Origin: Bacteroidales bacterium
GTDB lineage: Bacteria > Bacteroidota > Bacteroidia > Bacteroidales > UBA932
DNA length: 9,181 nucleotides
Reading direction: 5' to 3'
Assembly: GCA_017631875.1 (NCBI GenBank)
Contig: JAGBSL010000071.1
Span: 1 to 9,181, forward strand
In this document: positions 1,840-6,729 of the stretch, in pieces
Layout of the letters: each line of letters starts with the position of its first letter
Numbering within the stretch: position 1 is the stretch's first letter
Position numbers and translations under genes: made by a program
The notes under the pieces: generated by a model
Databases searched by the model: none
Told to the model about the DNA's origin: nothing
What the model saw: only the letters and a program-made list of their open reading frames with translations

Positions 1840-2802
1840 CTATGCCCTCCCGTATTTCTTGGTGTGGAACCACTTGTTGAGGAGAGGAACCACAGAGTTC
1901 ATGATAAGGATAGCGAACGATACTCCCTCAGGATATGCTCCGAAGTAACGGATCAGCATTGTGATCACACCGATGCCGATACCAAACACCACGCCACCCA
2001 TGTTGCTCATAGGAGATGTCACATAGTCGGTAGCCATGAAGATAGAACCGAGAAGGAGACCACCTGTGAGGATATTGAAGAGAGGGTCAGTGTACTCAGC
2101 AGGGTTGATTGCCCAGAAGATGCCTGAGAACACTGCTACAGTCGCAAGAATCGAGAGTGTGATGTATGGACGGATCACCCTGCGGACAAGGAGATACACG
2201 AAACCGATGAGCAGCGCGATCGCTGAAAGCTCACCGGCAGAACCTCCGATGTTGCAGAAGAGCATATCCATATAACCCATGTTCTCGATGGCAGCTACGC
2301 CGCTTTCCTTAGCGATTCCGAGAGGAGTCGCACCTGTGAAAGCATCGAAGTTGCCGATGAAGCCGTTTGGCTTAGTCCAGTTTGTCATGTAAGTAGGGAA
2401 TGAGATCAGAAGGAACACACGGCCGACGAGGGCTGGGTTGAACACGTTCTGACCGAGACCGCCGAATGTCATCTTAGCGACTCCGACAGCTACTACTGCA
2501 CCGATGAACACTACCCACCAAGGTGTAGAGGCAGGAAGGTTGAGTGCAAGAAGAACACCTGTCACGGCTGCAGACCAGTCGCATACTGTGCAAGGCTTCT
2601 TCAACAGATATTTTGTGATAAGATACTCCAGCAAGATGCATGAAGCAACGCTCACTCCAAGAACGAGAAGTTCCGACCAGCCGTAGCAGAGGACAGAAAC
2701 AACCACTGCAGGGAGCAGAGCGATCACTACGTCACGCATCAAAGACTTGGTCGAAGTCTTCGTATGCAGATGCGGCGACGGTGAAACCAGTATTTTATCC
2801 AT
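1840..2802 (-). CDS. rnfD: RnfD, FMN-carrying membrane subunit of the Rnf complex
   Basis: This 320-residue polytopic protein is homologous to NqrB. About ten hydrophobic segments can be traced between residues 24 and 307. The TGAT motif in DAFTGATPLG (156-159) marks Thr159 as the covalent FMN acceptor. Other conserved stretches are GGLGQNVFNPALVGR (114-128) and GSIFMATDYVTSP (252-264). In the complex RnfD relays electrons within the membrane together with RnfG and is implicated in ion movement. The ATG is preceded by an A-rich leader (2803-2830) without a Shine-Dalgarno sequence, unlike rnfC, rnfG, rnfE and rnfA. It is separated from rnfC by a palindromic repeat element, so it may be expressed somewhat independently of rnfBC. 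That last point is inference. Length and motifs look normal. Confidence 0.97.
   Translation of the reverse strand: MDKILVSPSPHLHTKTSTKSLMRDVVIALLPAVVVSVLCYGWSELLVLGVSVASCILLEYLITKYLLKKPCTVCDWSAAVTGVLLALNLPASTPWWVVFIGAVVAVGVAKMTFGGLGQNVFNPALVGRVFLLISFPTYMTNWTKPNGFIGNFDAFTGATPLGIAKESGVAAIENMGYMDMLFCNIGGSAGELSAIALLIGFVYLLVRRVIRPYITLSILATVAVFSGIFWAINPAEYTDPLFNILTGGLLLGSIFMATDYVTSPMSNMGGVVFGIGIGVITMLIRYFGAYPEGVSFAILIMNSVVPLLNKWFHTKKYGRA
1846..1851 (-). promoter_or_regulatory. Ribosome binding site of rnfG inside the rnfD 3' end
   Basis: GGGAGG on the minus strand is nine bases before the rnfG ATG and lies within the final Gly-Arg codons of rnfD. It fits the pattern of coupled starts in the rnfDGE stretch. 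Confidence 0.65.
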
Positions 2803-2830: not shown

Positions 2831-2935
2831 GAGGCAGGGGGCAAAGGTAAAAACCGTGGCCGCCCATGGCCTCGTGAATGGGAGGGGCCCACCGCAGGTG
2901 GGAGGGATTTAGTTTTTACCTTTGCCCCCTGCCTC
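2831..2935. repeat. Palindromic repeat element, copy 1, between rnfC and rnfD
   Basis: A perfect 24-bp inverted repeat (2831-2854 with 2912-2935) encloses a GC-rich interior. The part shared with the copy at 5755-5859 is 2848-2918, bounded by TAAAAAC and GTTTTTA. The outer 17 bp of each arm (2831-2847, 2919-2935) have no counterpart in the other copy. Inside are hairpin CCCAT/ATGGG (2863-2867 with 2878-2882) and hairpin CCCACC-GCA-GGTGGG (2888-2902). Two GGGAGGG tracts (2880-2886, 2900-2906) flank the second hairpin, and GGCC occurs three times. The right arm covers the rnfC stop and its last five codons. No open reading frame lies inside. It may be a non-autonomous mobile palindrome of the REP or MITE kind, or a structured RNA; I do not recognise a named family. 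Confidence 0.88.
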
Positions 2936-4277
2936 TGATAATTTTAATTACATCACCTTTTGCAAGACGGATGATGTCCAGAAGAGGAATGTTTGCAGGA
3001 CAGCTGTAGAGGCAACATCCGCACTCGATGCAATCCTGTACCGCATTCTCCTCAAGCTCGTCGAACATGCTGTTGCGAGCATACTTCTGGAGAAGGAACG
3101 GCTCAAGTCCCATAGGACATGCCTCTGCGCACTTTCCGCAACGGATACATGCAGACTCGACACCACGTACTGTCTGCTCAGCAGTCAGATAAAGAAGCGA
3201 CGACGAACCTTTTACTGTAGTTGCATCAAGATTTGCAATCGCCTTACCCATCATAGGACCGCCGCTGACAATCTTGACAGCCTTCTCTGGAATACCTCCG
3301 GCAACCTCCGCAATATATGAAAGCGGCATACCGATACGGAACTTGTAGTTATGCTGGTTCTCCATCGGGAGACAGTCACCCGTGATTGTCATCACATTGG
3401 TAATGAGCGGGATATTCTTCTGAACAGCCTCGTATACAGCGAGAGATGTAGCTACGTTCTGCACTACCGCTCCTACGTCGATAGGAAGTCCCATAGACTT
3501 GACCTGACGCTTCATCACTGCATCGATAAGCTGCTTCTCACCACCCTGCGGATACTTCTTCTTGAGAGTCATCACAGAAATGCCCTCATAGCCCTTTGCA
3601 GTCTTCTGGAGCTCAGCAACGGCAGCGGTCATGGCCTTGATTGCCTCAGGCTTGTTCTCCTCGATACCGATCACTGCAGGACATCCGCCCAGAACCTGCT
3701 TCATGATAGCGGCTCCGACAACGATCTCCTTGCTTCTCTCAAGCATGATACGATAGTCAGATGTAAGATAAGGCTCACACTCTGCACCATTGAGGATCAG
3801 GCAGTCAGCCTTCTTGCCCGGAGGAGGGCAAAGCTTCACGTGTGCAGGGAAAGTCGCACCACCGAGTCCCACAACGCCACACATCTTGATCTTCTCAAGA
3901 ATAGCCTTGTTGTCCTCTGGGATAGCTGTCACGAGAGTATCTGTAAGGTCAACGCCCTCGATCCACTCGTCACCCTCCACATCAATCTCAATGTGAGTAA
4001 TATTGTTACCGGCGAGGTCCTTGCGAGGTCCTACTGACTTCACAGTACCTGATACCGATGAATGTACATAAGCTGAAATGAATCCCGCAGGCTCTGCAAT
4101 TACCTGGCCGACCTTCACCTGATCACCTGCCTTCACGATCGGAGTTGCAGGGGCACCAAGATGCTGAGCAACAGAGATGAACACCTTTGAAGGAACAGGA
4201 AGCACCTCGATCTTGCAGTCCTTTGAAATTTTGCTGTCGCTTGGGTGGATACCACCTATTGAAAATGTCTTCATCAT
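2916..4277 (-). CDS. rnfC: RnfC, NAD(H)- and FMN-binding peripheral subunit of the Rnf complex
   Basis: This 453-residue soluble subunit sits on the cytoplasmic face and exchanges electrons with NAD+/NADH. The N-terminal part has the RnfC barrel-sandwich region, seen as the hairpin-like stretch around AGDQVKVGQVIAEP (50-63). The middle is the complex-I 51 kDa-like nucleotide and FMN fold, with GLGGATFPAHVK (137-148) and NGAECEPYLTSD (163-174). GGPMMGK is at 339-345. Two ferredoxin motifs follow, CIRCGKCAEACP (Cys377, 380, 383, 387) and CIECGCCLYSCP (Cys416, 419, 422, 426), for two [4Fe-4S] clusters. Two adjacent ATGs (4277 and 4274) are possible starts; AAGGAGG lies nine bases before the first. 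The gene begins four bases after rnfB. Its last codons (GRGQR and stop) lie inside the arm of a palindromic repeat element. Confidence 0.97.
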   Translation of the reverse strand: MMKTFSIGGIHPSDSKISKDCKIEVLPVPSKVFISVAQHLGAPATPIVKAGDQVKVGQVIAEPAGFISAYVHSSVSGTVKSVGPRKDLAGNNITHIEIDVEGDEWIEGVDLTDTLVTAIPEDNKAILEKIKMCGVVGLGGATFPAHVKLCPPPGKKADCLILNGAECEPYLTSDYRIMLERSKEIVVGAAIMKQVLGGCPAVIGIEENKPEAIKAMTAAVAELQKTAKGYEGISVMTLKKKYPQGGEKQLIDAVMKRQVKSMGLPIDVGAVVQNVATSLAVYEAVQKNIPLITNVMTITGDCLPMENQHNYKFRIGMPLSYIAEVAGGIPEKAVKIVSGGPMMGKAIANLDATTVKGSSSLLYLTAEQTVRGVESACIRCGKCAEACPMGLEPFLLQKYARNSMFDELEENAVQDCIECGCCLYSCPANIPLLDIIRLAKGDVIKIIRGRGQR

Positions 4278-4281
4278 AGTA

Positions 4282-5241
4282 CTATTCCTCCTTCTTTACA
4301 GATTTCTCCACTCCTGCTGCGCCGTCGGTCGAAATGACAGTTGGGGTTACCGGCTCTGCCGGCTTAGGCGCTGGAGCGGCCTCTGGTTTTGGCGCTGGAG
4401 CCGCTGGCTTTGGTGGGATTACAGGGAAATTCACTGTATGGATGGCACCAGTAGGACACTCGGCAACGCATTTCTTACAAAGCCTACACTTTGTGTAGTC
4501 AATGTAAGCGAGGTTGTTCTCAACTGTGATAGCCTCGAAAGGACAAACCTTAGCGCACTTGCTGCAGCCTATGCAGGCAGCCTTGCAGGCCTTGCGCGCA
4601 GCGGCGCCCTTGTCTTTGTTCACACATGAAACATATACACGCATGTTTCTGCGTCCCTTGTTGCGAAGCTCGATGACAGCCTTAGGACATGCCTTCACAC
4701 AGGCACCACAAGCCGTACACTTCTCCTCGTCAACGACAGGAAGTCCTGTTTCAGCATCCATGGAGATTGCTCCGAACTGGCAGACTGCAACGCAGTCACC
4801 ACATCCGAGACATCCGAAAGAACATGCTGTGTCGCCACTGTAAAGAGTGGCCTTGACACGGCAAGACTGATAGCCGCCGTACTCGTTTGTGCGAGGACGG
4901 TTCTCACAAGTACCGTTGCAGCGTACCACAGCGACCTGAGGCTCCTTGACGGCCACCTCAACGCCGAGCACAGCAGCAACCTTCTGCATGCCTTCATTGC
5001 CTCCTACAGGACAGAAGCAGCTGTCCAGATTTGGAGACGACTCAACGCAATGCTGGGCGAAAGCGCGACAACCTGCCTGTCCGCAGCCACCGCAGTTTGC
5101 ACCAGGCAATACCTTCTCCACCTCATCGATCCTCGGATCTTCCTCGACATGGAACTTCTTTGCCACGACGAAGAGGACAACAGCGAGGGCCGCACCAAGA
5201 ATGGTGAGGATTGCAATAGTCCAGATGATTGTTTGTGTCAT
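4282..5241 (-). CDS. rnfB: RnfB, multi-cluster iron-sulfur subunit receiving electrons from ferredoxin
   Basis: This 319-residue protein starts with one membrane anchor (about 5-27). A four-cysteine cluster domain follows (Cys50, 53, 58 and 75 in ANCGGCGQAGC and DSCFCP). Then come four ferredoxin motifs of the CxxCxxCxxxC type at Cys144/147/150/154, 175/178/181/185, 223/226/229/233 and 252/255/258/262. Up to five [4Fe-4S] clusters are therefore expected, more than in the short proteobacterial RsxB and in keeping with the longer RnfB of anaerobes. RnfB is the entry point for ferredoxin electrons. After residue 275 a low-complexity Pro/Ala/Lys tail (about 277-297) and a charged end follow; their role is unknown. 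The leader at 5242-5280 is AT-rich, lacks a Shine-Dalgarno sequence, and is separated from rseC by a short palindrome. The last codons KKEE supply the rnfC ribosome binding site. Confidence 0.97.
   Translation of the reverse strand: MTQTIIWTIAILTILGAALAVVLFVVAKKFHVEEDPRIDEVEKVLPGANCGGCGQAGCRAFAQHCVESSPNLDSCFCPVGGNEGMQKVAAVLGVEVAVKEPQVAVVRCNGTCENRPRTNEYGGYQSCRVKATLYSGDTACSFGCLGCGDCVAVCQFGAISMDAETGLPVVDEEKCTACGACVKACPKAVIELRNKGRRNMRVYVSCVNKDKGAAARKACKAACIGCSKCAKVCPFEAITVENNLAYIDYTKCRLCKKCVAECPTGAIHTVNFPVIPPKPAAPAPKPEAAPAPKPAEPVTPTVISTDGAAGVEKSVKKEE
4287..4293 (-). promoter_or_regulatory. Ribosome binding site of rnfC inside the rnfB 3' end
   Basis: AAGGAGG on the minus strand lies within the final Lys-Glu-Glu codons of rnfB. 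It is nine bases before the first of two adjacent ATGs and twelve before the second. It slightly favours the first ATG and implies coupling of rnfC to rnfB. Confidence 0.75.
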
Positions 5242-5280
5242 TATAGCTATAATTAGTTTAGTTGTTGTTCATTATACAGA

Positions 5281-5300
5281 CCCTTCGACTTCGCTCAGGG
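5281..5300. repeat. Short REP-like palindrome between rseC and rnfB
   Basis: CCCTTCGACTTCGCTCAGGG is an imperfect palindrome with complementary CCCT/AGGG ends and a CG-rich interior, set in an AT-rich gap. It lies 12 bases after the rseC stop. From memory, this 20-mer is a recurring intergenic sequence in many bacterial genomes and is often followed by TGACA, as it is here. That recollection should be checked. Short GTTGT/ACAAC stretches (5261-5265 and 5309-5313) flank it in inverted orientation. The rest of the gap (5242-5280) is an AT-rich leader that includes the perfect palindrome TATAGCTATA at 5242-5251, directly before the rnfB ATG. Confidence 0.65.
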
Positions 5301-5312
5301 TGACAGGGACAA

Positions 5313-5729
5313 CTATTTGATATAGAACACGAATTCGTTTGACAGCTTATTTCTAAACAGCCACACGAACAGGTAATATACCGCAACGCCACCGATAGCA
5401 GTCAGTGCACGATACACCTCGCTTTCGATAACGCCAGACAAAGATAATATTAAAATCATTAAAACGGCCAAAGGAATCACATAAGATATCCACACGGCTT
5501 TCAACCCCATGGCCATCTTCGTGCACACCTGCACCTCATCTCCAACCTTATACGTAGCATAAGGATCAGTAGGCAGCATGATCACCTTCTCCTCTTCCTC
5601 CGACATGCCGCAAAGTGCCTTTGCATGACATGACGAGCATGCAGACGAAACGATTATCTGCACAGTTGTAAAATCCGGAGTGATATCCAATATCCTTCCG
5701 GCATGAACTATTTCATTCTTCTTTGACAT
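5313..5729 (-). CDS. rseC: RseC/MucC family membrane protein leading the rnf genes
   Basis: This 138-residue protein matches the RseC/MucC family (SoxR-reducing system protein RseC). An N-terminal cytoplasmic domain carries CSSCHAKALC (Cys31, Cys34, Cys40), a cysteine motif characteristic of the family. Two membrane segments follow (about 79-98 and 105-125), with a short tail ending FVFYIK. In Escherichia coli, RseC is encoded with the sigma-E regulators and takes part, with the Rnf-like Rsx complex, in keeping SoxR reduced. In Bacteroidota it commonly precedes rnfB, where its exact job (assembly, maturation or regulation of Rnf) is not settled. The ATG at 5729 has an AT-rich leader without a Shine-Dalgarno sequence. 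Palindromic elements lie on both sides of the gene. Length and motif are normal for the family. Confidence 0.92.
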   Translation of the reverse strand: MSKKNEIVHAGRILDITPDFTTVQIIVSSACSSCHAKALCGMSEEEEKVIMLPTDPYATYKVGDEVQVCTKMAMGLKAVWISYVIPLAVLMILILSLSGVIESEVYRALTAIGGVAVYYLFVWLFRNKLSNEFVFYIK

Positions 5730-5754
5730 AACTACTTAGCTTTCATTATTATAT

Positions 5755-5859
5755 ATTCATATGTGTGTTTAAAAACCCTGGCCGCCCGTGGCCTGGTGAA
5801 CGGGAGGGGCCCGCGCCGAAGGCGTGGGAGGGATTTAGTTTTTAAACATACATATGAAT
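5755..5859. repeat. Palindromic repeat element, copy 2, between the DUF3108 gene and rseC
   Basis: An inverted repeat matching at 21 of 22 positions (5755-5776 with 5838-5859) encloses a core that aligns with copy 1 over 5770-5844. Hairpin 1 is CCCGT/ACGGG (5785-5789 with 5800-5804), where copy 1 has CCCAT/ATGGG, a compensated base-pair change. Hairpin 2 is CCCGCGCC-GAA-GGCGTGGG (5810-5828), two pairs longer than in copy 1. Both mismatches in the element (5765 with 5849, and 5813 with 5825) are G opposite T when read on the plus strand. GGGAGGG occurs at 5802-5808 and 5826-5832. The outer arms (about 5755-5769 and 5845-5859) are AT-rich and unlike those of copy 1. The element begins three bases after the DUF3108 stop and ends 25 bases before the rseC ATG. 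Confidence 0.88.
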
Positions 5860-5862
5860 TAA

Positions 5863-6729
5863 CTATTTCTTTATCAATGAACTGAAAGGATATTTCAATC
5901 CTTCATATGATTTGAGGCGGCCAGATGCAGTGCCCACAAGGATAGGCGCCTCGAACTTGACCGGAATCCTGTTGTCATCATCCGACACCCATATCATCAT
6001 ATCCTCCTCACCGTTGAAGACCTCTCCGGCAACAAGCCTCGCTGCGAACTTAATCGTCCTGACCGTACCCAACCCCTTGACCTTCACCGTCTCACGACCA
6101 TAGAGTATGAAGTACACATTATAGACATCATCATCTATCGCAAAGGTCATCGGATACTTCTTTCCAGGAACTATGTTATCGATATCCATGTTCCTCGCAA
6201 GGAAGAAAAGCGTCGGAAGATCGTATGTACATGGAGTCAGCGTCAGTTCCATCTCCCTCTGGCCCCGGCTTGACGAATAGACATCAGCCGAGATATAAGG
6301 CTCGGGAACATCCCAATTATATATATAGGTATTCTTCGCAACATACCTTCCCTCATGAGTATCACGGGTAAACTTCAAAGGCCTCAACCCGTCGCAAGTG
6401 AACCAGGCATCGAAATCCTCACGTACCTTAAAGATAAGGTCGAACAGTCTTGTGGTCTTTCCGTAAACTGAACAATGGAAAGCCTTAAGGCCATTGAACC
6501 TCACAGTATCAAGCACCACCGTACCCGTTCCAACATCAGAGTCTATGTTTCCCCACTCATAATGCATCGTAAAGGTCAGCTTCTCGCCTGCCTGATATGC
6601 AAGATCCTCCTCTGCCAGCGTGCGCACTGGAATACAATAAGTCTTAGAAACATCATTCTCCTGCGCACATACCGGCAGAAGCGCCAAATACGCACACAGG
6701 AGAACCAATATTTTCTTCAAATGCCTCAT
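5863..6729 (-). CDS. Exported DUF3108 domain protein
   Basis: This 288-residue protein is of the DUF3108 type found in Bacteroidota, judged by the pattern LAYQAGEKLTFTMHYEWGNI (43-62) and the following beta-rich region with FDLIFKVREDFDAWF (96-110). A signal peptide is visible: basic MRHLKK, a hydrophobic stretch to about residue 19, and a likely signal peptidase I site VCA|QE after residue 22. The protein is then periplasmic or attached to the outer membrane; the cysteine context is a poor lipobox. The frame stays open upstream to 6843 inside dnaB, but the ATG at 6729 places the signal peptide at the N-terminus and leaves ten bases after the dnaB stop. The molecular function of the family is not established to my knowledge. 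Nothing links it to dnaB beyond position. Confidence 0.85.
   Translation of the reverse strand: MRHLKKILVLLCAYLALLPVCAQENDVSKTYCIPVRTLAEEDLAYQAGEKLTFTMHYEWGNIDSDVGTGTVVLDTVRFNGLKAFHCSVYGKTTRLFDLIFKVREDFDAWFTCDGLRPLKFTRDTHEGRYVAKNTYIYNWDVPEPYISADVYSSSRGQREMELTLTPCTYDLPTLFFLARNMDIDNIVPGKKYPMTFAIDDDVYNVYFILYGRETVKVKGLGTVRTIKFAARLVAGEVFNGEEDMMIWVSDDDNRIPVKFEAPILVGTASGRLKSYEGLKYPFSSLIKK

Follow-up and report, generated by a model that had tools for sequence, protein, structure and literature searches.

Can a repeated element keep one conserved interior and yet be closed, at nearly every site that it occupies, by a stem of different sequence? This question is raised by a stretch of 9,181 nucleotides from a Bacteroidales bacterium (GenBank assembly GCA_017631875.1, contig JAGBSL010000071.1; hereafter the window), in which two elements of about 105 nt share a 71-nt core with AAAAAC and GTTTTT at its ends, each between outer arms of its own. 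The original prediction, made from the letters alone, described two copies of one palindromic element with arms that differ between copies but pair within each, and offered two readings: either pairing itself is selected, or insertion creates an inverted copy of flanking DNA. A repeat search of the window and folding against dinucleotide shuffles bear out the common core and the private inverted repeats. Specifically, repeats of 24 nt (2831-2854/2912-2935, 100% complementary, spacing 57 nt) enclose copy 1 and repeats of 22 nt (5755-5776/5838-5859, 95% complementary, spacing 61 nt) enclose copy 2, where the sole arm mismatch is a G·T on the + strand; the cores are detected as direct repeats (43 nt at 91% and 21 nt at 100%), and on both strands of both copies none of 200 shuffles folds as well (z -6.4 to -7.6). 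At a rough probability of 0.5, we read the element as similar to the repetitive extragenic palindromes (REPs), with arms that would be made afresh at insertion, probably by hairpin-primed copying, and then kept paired.

The AAAAAC and GTTTTT ends pair, but the rest of the core is no simple palindrome: on one of the two strands it forms a head with a pseudoknot, and the helices of this head covary strongly. The order on the + strand is AAAAAC, a P2 hairpin (CXUGGCC/GGCCUYG), AGGGG, a P3 hairpin (CCC...GGG), AGGGAUUUA and GUUUUU, and the P2 loop CCCRU pairs with AYGGG just downstream, forming an H-type pseudoknot. Over 26 distinct cores, 97.6% of cells pair, compared with only 26-62% in slid controls, and nine pairs are changed on both sides, compared with 3.9 in shuffles. 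Over 88 distinct cores, the pseudoknot, which was absent from the search model, is 98.4% paired, with 23 cells changed on both sides (5.2 in shuffles); the corresponding numbers are 45 (11.1) for P2 and 83 (23.9) for P3, all being counts of sequences rather than events and inflated by related copies. Covarying helices on a single strand, a pseudoknot and one functional strand are features shared with the structured RNAs of Rfam 15, but neither the window nor 15 further loci gave an Rfam 15 match to the element, the matches listed falling elsewhere.

When the core was sought in related genomes, as the original prediction had proposed, many copies were found in uncultured Bacteroidales (L-numbers denote loci, G-numbers the genomes compared, and family 1 the element of the window). 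A first scan of genome contigs used an 18-base piece of the core tail, which makes the tail invariant in that set by construction. It gave 53 loci, 41 of which contain 43 full elements, and all 41 lie in Bacteroidales metagenome-assembled genomes (MAGs), many of them from ruminant gut samples. The 12 loci lacking a full element comprise five chance matches in other phyla or orders (L006, L020, L042, L046, L055) and seven cut or rearranged loci (L009, L010, L011, L012, L037, L039, L051). Later copy sets were found by a covariance model (R1) or by a profile. R1, some of whose matches are variants or pieces of the element, matched 25 of the 25 genomes chosen via the scan (2-22 matches per genome, E <=0.01, 241 in total) and 122 of 151 genomes sampled from the genus that includes G016; 80 regions were retrieved for reading from the R1 matches in these two sets, and 40 from another search. 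The profile search (nhmmer) returned 185 matches in 128 distinct contexts, 96 of them with full ends and the 40-nt flanks used for arm statistics, and collapsing these 96 copies by similar arms left 60 clusters. Viral contigs were searched with the core-tail pattern, one core pattern and four arms: the tail pattern occurred in four contigs carrying one unrelated phage sequence, taken as chance, and the core pattern and the four arms had no exact match. Plasmids gave no match to copy 1. With no true match in either search, a viral or plasmid origin was rejected, nor was a match found for the four arms tried as guide- or spacer-like copies of phage DNA.

Across the family, as in the window, arms are unlike between copies and pair within each, with some shared-arm exceptions; the copies are many, and their arms are paired and mostly not constant. 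The arm pairing score has a median of 18 over the 96 copies, compared with a median of 1 (99th percentile 9, maximum 20) for control arms in which left and right come from different copies. This control, together with the window repeats and the shuffle folds, rejects a chance origin of the pairing. Private, well-paired arms of about 19 nt are found on almost all copies: a score of >=12 is reached in 57 of 60 clusters, the poor ones being L285, L073 and L258, and the median ungapped arm length over the 60 clusters is 19 nt. In the 54 clusters with an ungapped arm of at least 10 nt, the paired fraction is 0.83-1.0 as far as nucleotide 17, counted from the edge of the core, and has fallen to near chance by about nucleotide 26, i.e., the arms end sharply. 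Taken together, these copies make up, with near certainty, a mobile family with copy-specific paired arms.

The variety of the arms is well seen in G002, where eight copies of an extra-C subfamily have a mean core identity of 94% (minimum 86%), a mean arm identity of 50% (maximum 70%) against 46% for shuffled arms, and a within-copy arm complementarity of 0.90-1.00. Two of the G002 arms, searched in that draft genome with up to two mismatches, each occur only as their own two arms. Eight copy pairs have identical cores; arms are more than 60% identical in four of these pairs, at least three of which look orthologous (L021/L040, L066/L218, L024/window). Orthologous arms can be slow to change (at the rnfC site, window and L024 are 95% identical), though copy 2 and its counterpart L253 (G025, same site) have clearly different arms despite flanking proteins that are 94% and 88% identical.

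Mismatches within the arms indicate which strand is structured, since G·T and A·C were scored alike. On the + strand, 68 G·U and 24 A·C mismatches were counted over the 96 copies and 43 and 15 over the 60 clusters (p=3e-4), and a greedier arm clustering is likewise rich in G·U (36:9). The ratio is 27:8 for cores flanked by two genes of opposite direction to their own, 6:1 for those flanked by two genes of like direction, 5:2 at convergent sites and 2:1 inside open reading frames (ORFs). In line with this, P3 pair 44-56 of the 88 cores is A-U in 41, G·U in 44, unpaired in three and never G-C. Because G·U exceeds A·C on the + strand whatever the direction of the flanking genes, one small class apart, the strand reading 5'-arm-AAAAAC-[P2 + pseudoknot + P3]-GTTTTT-arm'-3' is the structured one, and there is good reason to believe that its structure is under selection; the relevant single strand may be RNA or single-stranded DNA (ssDNA). 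In 31 of 39 tandem placements this strand lies antisense to the genes, which makes a role in operon mRNA unlikely; a stabiliser of the operon transcript is disfavored, as the excess of G·U is kept in these antisense cases.

These observations could be explained if pairing alone were selected: a structured RNA or ssDNA that accepts any sequence in its P1 stem would inherit its arms, which would then quickly diverge by compensatory change, so that unrelated arms would reflect nothing but time. Such selection agrees with the strong covariation throughout, with the compensatory arm changes, transversions included, of a subfamily with fixed arms (see below), with the excess of G·U on one strand whatever the gene direction, with the arms shared by some copies and with several sites at which both arms look new. 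However, it accommodates poorly the G002 subfamily, whose cores are alike and whose arms stand at about the shuffled level, the more so as, at the three of its eight loci that were compared (L007, L057, L230), the relatives read lack a family-1 element. The slow change of the orthologous rnfC arms also speaks against it, copy 2 and L253 being the contrary case, the presence in right arms of codons native to rnfC and of QVSHD codons (see below) would need coincidence, and the arms of L090 and L146 pair despite a damaged core. Selected pairing as the whole explanation is thus rather unlikely, and arms made for each insertion, at or soon after it, instead of being inherited, are the probable case.

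That insertion took place is the clear reading of presence and absence at orthologous sites, as expected of a mobile element. At the rnfC/rnfD site, the element is found in six of 30 orthologous loci (one with a damaged core), and a family-1 element is absent in 23, which include the near relatives L093, L096 and L097. At the site of copy 2, matched in 76 of 400 genomes, the comparison with empty sites that the original prediction had suggested found no element in 28 of the 29 loci read (30 were returned, of which L331 was unreadable), and the sole filled relative among them, G025, is the closest there (94% and 88% protein identity). Similarly, the L230 site is matched in 331 of 400 genomes, and 25 of the 29 relatives read have no element, with gaps of -1 to 61 nt (median 12), while the other four hold a different palindromic family. 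The 60 clusters comprise 39 tandem (31 antisense and 8 sense), 9 convergent and 0 divergent placements, the remaining 12 being five inside a mechanically called ORF and seven one-sided. Direct repeats of at least 5 nt beside the arms occur in 3.8% of 53 copies and in 4.9% of shuffled pairs, i.e., no target duplication was found. The element is a non-coding repeat with a defined structure, dispersed over the genome, and its insertions fall in short gaps at the ends of genes.

The same gaps bear on the proposal that perfect hairpins already present at a site, for example terminators, receive the core in their loop, which would yield copy-specific arms without any copying. There is no room for a 40-nt hairpin where the gaps are <=18 nt, as in 24 of the 28 relatives without copy 2, or where the median gap is 12 nt, as at the L230 site (25 of 29 empty), and the same holds for L093, L096 and L097 at rnfC; moreover, both window copies lie within co-directional gene runs. 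A few longer empty gaps (L306, L342) contain short stems by eye. Insertion into hairpin loops, disfavored by short empty gaps at the copy 2, L230 and rnfC sites, is barely credible.

Some gaps are occupied more than once. In several species, copies with different arms or opposite orientation are found in a carA/carB-like gap (named by eye; L047 and L056) and in the gap after a gene ending KNYFII.. (L052, L061, L083, L078), which could reflect either repeated insertion or fast turnover of the arms. After rnfC, a palindromic insert of another kind stands in L091, while L116, without a family-1 element, shows a further long inverted repeat (by eye).

The origin of the arms is best seen at the rnfC site, where the right arm encodes the C-terminus RGR of rnfC, with AGA, CGA, CGT or CGC as first codon depending on the genome, and the stop codon adjoins the border of the copy 1 right arm and the core. 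RGR also ends rnfC in L097 and L091, both lacking a family-1 element, and the left arm mirrors the right one, in G022 including an extra ATTATTCG. Likewise, the right arm at the L256 site extends into the stop-proximal codons QVSHD, which are also present in the empty relative L168. Judged against these relatives, one arm at the rnfC and QVSHD sites is, by all appearances, sequence that belonged to the gene beforehand, and the other arm is an inverted copy of it. Right arms also extend beyond the stop of the right-hand gene at L297, L008 and L070. Overall, among mechanically called ORFs, the stop of a right-hand - gene lies <=17 nt from the core, and so in the right arm or close to it, in nine of 60 clusters (L024, L061, L070, L008, L073, L256, L297, L253 and a doubtful 119-aa ORF in L052), and that of a left-hand + gene in 0 of 60, such genes flanking fewer copies. 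Gene starts lie near four cores (L014, L041, L248, L255) and are perhaps miscalled, and by reading the fixed-arm subfamily overlaps the end of a left gene.

These sites suggest how arms made afresh at insertion could arise. The 3' end in GTTTTT would fold back on AAAAAC through the six-base inverted repeat at the core ends, and the folded-back end would then prime synthesis over the adjacent DNA in a snap-back or template-switch reaction, by which about 19 nt of flank would be written a second time, inverted. Afterwards, pairing would be kept by selection on the + strand structure, by hairpin-templated correction or by both. That snap-back or template-switch copying makes the arms is a proposal to which we would give slightly less than even odds. 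Both readings of the original prediction thus have support and neither alone suffices: an inverted copy of neighboring DNA written at insertion is seen at the rnfC and L256/QVSHD sites, but it is unproven as a general rule, since elsewhere the empty relatives mostly have too little intergenic DNA for either arm to come from it.

Several observations weigh against arms made by copying the flank. At the copy 2 and L230 sites, relatives usually have a gap of only about 10 nt, in which neither arm would have fitted, and in the closest pair of filled and empty sites read (L181 and L142), the core plus about 13 nt of each arm looks new. The arms are also skewed in composition (left G 0.34 and C 0.13, right C 0.32 and G 0.15) within AT-rich surroundings (G and C 0.15-0.16 each just outside the arms), a difference not expected if neutral flank were simply copied. 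Intrastrand template switching favors 5'G-3'C and 5'U-3'A pairs, according to PMC8794818, and the G-left/C-right skew agrees in sign with that bias; nevertheless, template switching on the + strand would write the left arm into the right, opposite to the direction of copying at rnfC and QVSHD. In addition, arms are homologous across the ten genomes of the fixed-arm subfamily, those of L080, L264, L265, L067 and L222 (two genomes) are partly alike, and one MAG has seven copies with the same right arm (L018, L027, L030, L032, L043, L045, L054), with identical cores and a deletion in the pseudoknot; because six of these seven are at contig ends, the left arm is visible only in L030, where it pairs poorly. 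As to the strand, the only context with a reversed ratio is a small class with a left + gene only (G·U 0, A·C 2). Finally, the comparison genomes are drafts, and no mobilizing enzyme was tied to the element among Y1_Tnp genes in 16 genomes and RVT_1 genes in 18.

We know of no enzyme that would act in this way, and two candidates were considered. A Y1 HUH transposase of the type of the REP-associated tyrosine transposases (RAYTs) might recognize the folded + strand and move it by REP-like ssDNA transposition, the arms arising from the joining step. Y1_Tnp (PF01797) is present in 16 of 16 carrier genomes, with 51 matches, although this is weak evidence because Y1 genes are common; the choice of sites resembles that of REPs (of the 60 clusters, 31 are tandem antisense, 8 tandem sense, 9 convergent and 0 divergent), target duplication is lacking, and the Y1 loci L200 and L212 hold an element whose head, GGGAGGGGACCC-hairpin-GGGGAGGG, is related and whose arms measure 20 bp. 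However, no strong match to the element was found beside the 30 Y1 genes examined of the 51, the only R1 match being weak (L207, 25 bits), several other Y1 loci carry unrelated palindromes, and known REPs have no copy-specific arms; this route is improbable. A palindromic motif adjoining the Y1 gene in L207 resembles that of a larger insert (GTAGGGCTTTAGCCC) found within or just before P3 of the family-1 element in L012 and L037.

Alternatively, a + strand RNA with GUUUUU at its end might be copied by target-primed reverse transcription, and the end of the complementary DNA would snap back to make the inverted copy. The geometry fits: the RNA would correspond to the structured strand, the flank on the primer side to the right arm and the copy to the left arm. 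However, RVT_1 matches were found in only six of 18 carrier genomes, five of them over the cut-off, and in none of G002, G009, G010, G012 and G045, each with 12-18 element matches. Drafts could miss the enzyme, but hardly in 12 genomes, and reverse transcription as the mover is very improbable. At L010, L011, L012, L023, L025, L037 and L039, a gene 3' tail of varying length is duplicated together with all or part of the element and a terminator. These were at first taken for retrocopies; integration of genomic islands at the gene 3' end is a plainer explanation, though not proved, and the loci are probably island attachment sites because their neighbors include TIR-like and RhuM-like genes (by eye).

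Once present, the stem appears to be maintained. In the fixed-arm subfamily, ten members chosen for like arms, a 22-bp arm stem is kept through numerous compensatory changes, C-G to A-U among them; at least two Watson-Crick types occur at 13 of 47 consensus pairs, 10 of these 13 in the arm stem, and its mismatches are G·U in 15 cases, A·C in two and other in two. At the rnfC site, three of 35 consensus pairs have two Watson-Crick types, and the arms decay and are mended in part; the consensus core pairs are unreliable there because the predicted consensus misses the pseudoknot. Arms still pair around damaged cores in L090, which lost P3, and in L146. In L269, the core is flipped between its arms relative to the neighboring gene, compared with L270, L271 and L272 (by eye), and resembles a spacer inversion; template switching between inverted repeats can invert what lies between them (PMC8604942). 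A conserved terminator-like hairpin (by eye) follows the element in several fixed-arm members (L270, L272, L281, L266, L293), and this subfamily may be an RNA gene in its own right.

On its - strand the window carries a series of genes: two RnfA/E-like genes (PF02508), an FMN-binding RnfG-like gene, rnfD, rnfC and an rnfB-like ferredoxin gene, followed by RseC/MucC-like and DUF3108 genes, dnaB and a zinc-ribbon protein, assigned via Pfam matches, with names that go beyond the Pfam names being interpretation. Copy 1 sits in the rnfC/rnfD gap and copy 2 between the DUF3108 gene and the RseC-like gene (Table 1).

Table 1. Parts of the two elements and their neighboring genes, in window coordinates.
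Feature	Position	Strand	Pfam or basis	Remarks
rnfD	1840..2802	-	PF03116	downstream neighbor of copy 1
rnfC	2916..4277	-	PF13375, PF01512	upstream neighbor of copy 1; stop at arm/core border
RseC/MucC-like gene	5313..5729	-	PF04246	downstream neighbor of copy 2
DUF3108 gene	5863..6720	-	PF11306	upstream neighbor of copy 2
Copy 1 left arm (GAGGCAGGGGGCAAAGGT)	2831..2848	+	inverted repeat	inverted copy, on comparative evidence
Copy 1 AAAAAC, inner end of P1 stem	2849..2854	+		pairs with 2912-2917
Copy 1 P2 hairpin CGUGGCC/GGCCUCG	2855..2874	+	covariation	2855-2861 with 2868-2874, U·U mismatch inside
Copy 1 H-type pseudoknot	P2 loop 2863-2867 (CCCAU) with 2878-2882 (AUGGG)	+	covariation	
Copy 1 pseudoknot helix, 3' strand	2878..2882	+	covariation	
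Copy 1 P3 hairpin CCCACC-GCA-GGUGGG	2888..2902	+	covariation	
Copy 1 GTTTTT, inner end of P1, 3' side	2912..2917	+		pairs with AAAAAC
Copy 1 right arm	2918..2935	+		inside rnfC reading frame (last codons, stop); native rnfC sequence, on comparative evidence
Copy 2 left arm (ATTCATATGTGTGTTT)	5755..5770	+	inverted repeat	
Copy 2 AAAAAC end of P1	5771..5776	+	inverted repeat	
Copy 2 P2 hairpin and pseudoknot	5777..5804	+		P2 is 5777-5783 with 5790-5796; compensatory pairs relative to copy 1
Copy 2 pseudoknot	CCCGU 5785-5789 with ACGGG 5800-5804	+	compensatory pairs relative to copy 1	
Copy 2 P3 hairpin CCCGCGCC-GAA-GGCGUGGG	5810..5828	+		one G·U pair
Copy 2 GTTTTT end of P1	5838..5843	+	inverted repeat	
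Copy 2 right arm	5844..5859	+		single G·T mismatch against left arm

How does the element compare with known repeats? REPs are palindromes of 20-40 bp that mostly bear a GTAG or CGTC tag and sit between tandem or convergent genes (PMC3733652). Like REPs, their composite bacterial interspersed mosaic elements (BIMEs) and RAYT-linked REPs, the element is a short multicopy intergenic palindrome at the 3' ends of tandem or convergent genes (39 and 9 of the 60 clusters, with 0 divergent) that presumably folds as a single strand; whereas REPs are constant and 20-40 bp long, it measures about 105 nt, has a pseudoknotted head and mostly differing arms, and lacks a GTAG or CGTC tag at the stem base. 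With miniature inverted-repeat transposable elements (MITEs) it shares small size, non-autonomy and multiple copies. MITE terminal repeats are common to all copies and flanked by direct target duplications. In contrast, the terminal repeats here are copy-specific, with only AAAAAC/GTTTTT in common (shared-arm exceptions apart), and no target duplication was found. The Correia elements (CREE) of Neisseria, counted here among MITEs, have inverted repeats and can bind RNase III, according to PMC2649163. Template switching, in turn, creates and maintains hairpins, and its resemblance to the present case is that one event writes a reverse-complement copy and can mend a stem or invert a loop, as in L269; but the hairpins described in PMC8794818 are mutations in RNA genes, whereas here a dispersed element has arms of near-fixed length at dozens of sites. 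Among the papers listed by a literature search, no title or abstract opening describes such a family, most subscription journals and all preprints being outside its scope. Copy-specific arms are a feature that ordinary repeats lack, and the finding is both real and unusual.

Related heads and other palindromes occur in the same genomes and are described here, not counted. They have long outer arms that differ between copies, sometimes followed by an internal TGGA/GGAA loop and then by a second copy-specific stem. Some related heads read GGGAGGGGCCC-hairpin-GGGAGGG, and those of L185, L186, L231, L233, L200 and L212 read GGGAGGG(G)(A)CCC-hairpin-GGG(G)AGGG between arms of 20-25 bp, the heads in L200 and L212 sharing their stretch with a Y1 transposase match. 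Family 2 (L163, L169, L186, L260, L261) begins [copy-specific arm] TGGA [6-bp copy-specific stem] ATTTTC.CACCCCC..GGGGGAGGGGCCC[hairpin] and continues GGGAGGGGG [stem'] GGAA or GGAG [arm'], the internal loop separating two copy-specific stems. Family 3 (L053 flank, L138, L182, L355, L357, L361, L365) has a similar internal loop and the head CACCCCC..GGGGGTGG; it is this family that four genomes have at the L230 site, where its arms measure about 20 bp and all differ except for those of L357 and L365, which resemble each other.

With this finding, a large bacterial genus gains a structured-RNA or ssDNA family that had not been annotated, and 122 of 151 genomes sampled from that genus have a match. 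Tentatively, the element may represent a novel type of mobile element, able to close itself wherever it lands, an AAAAAC/GTTTTT-primed inverted copy of about 19 nt building the stem, and the related heads (families 2-4) may do likewise; if so, these families would share a general route to terminal repeats without carrying them. Mobile repeats are normally recognized by constant ends, and ends that are remade would explain how perfect stems arise in one step. An element of this type would evade ordinary repeat annotation, since only its core is alike between copies. If its ends are indeed remade at each site, the family would provide a natural, countable system for template-switch or hairpin-primed synthesis.

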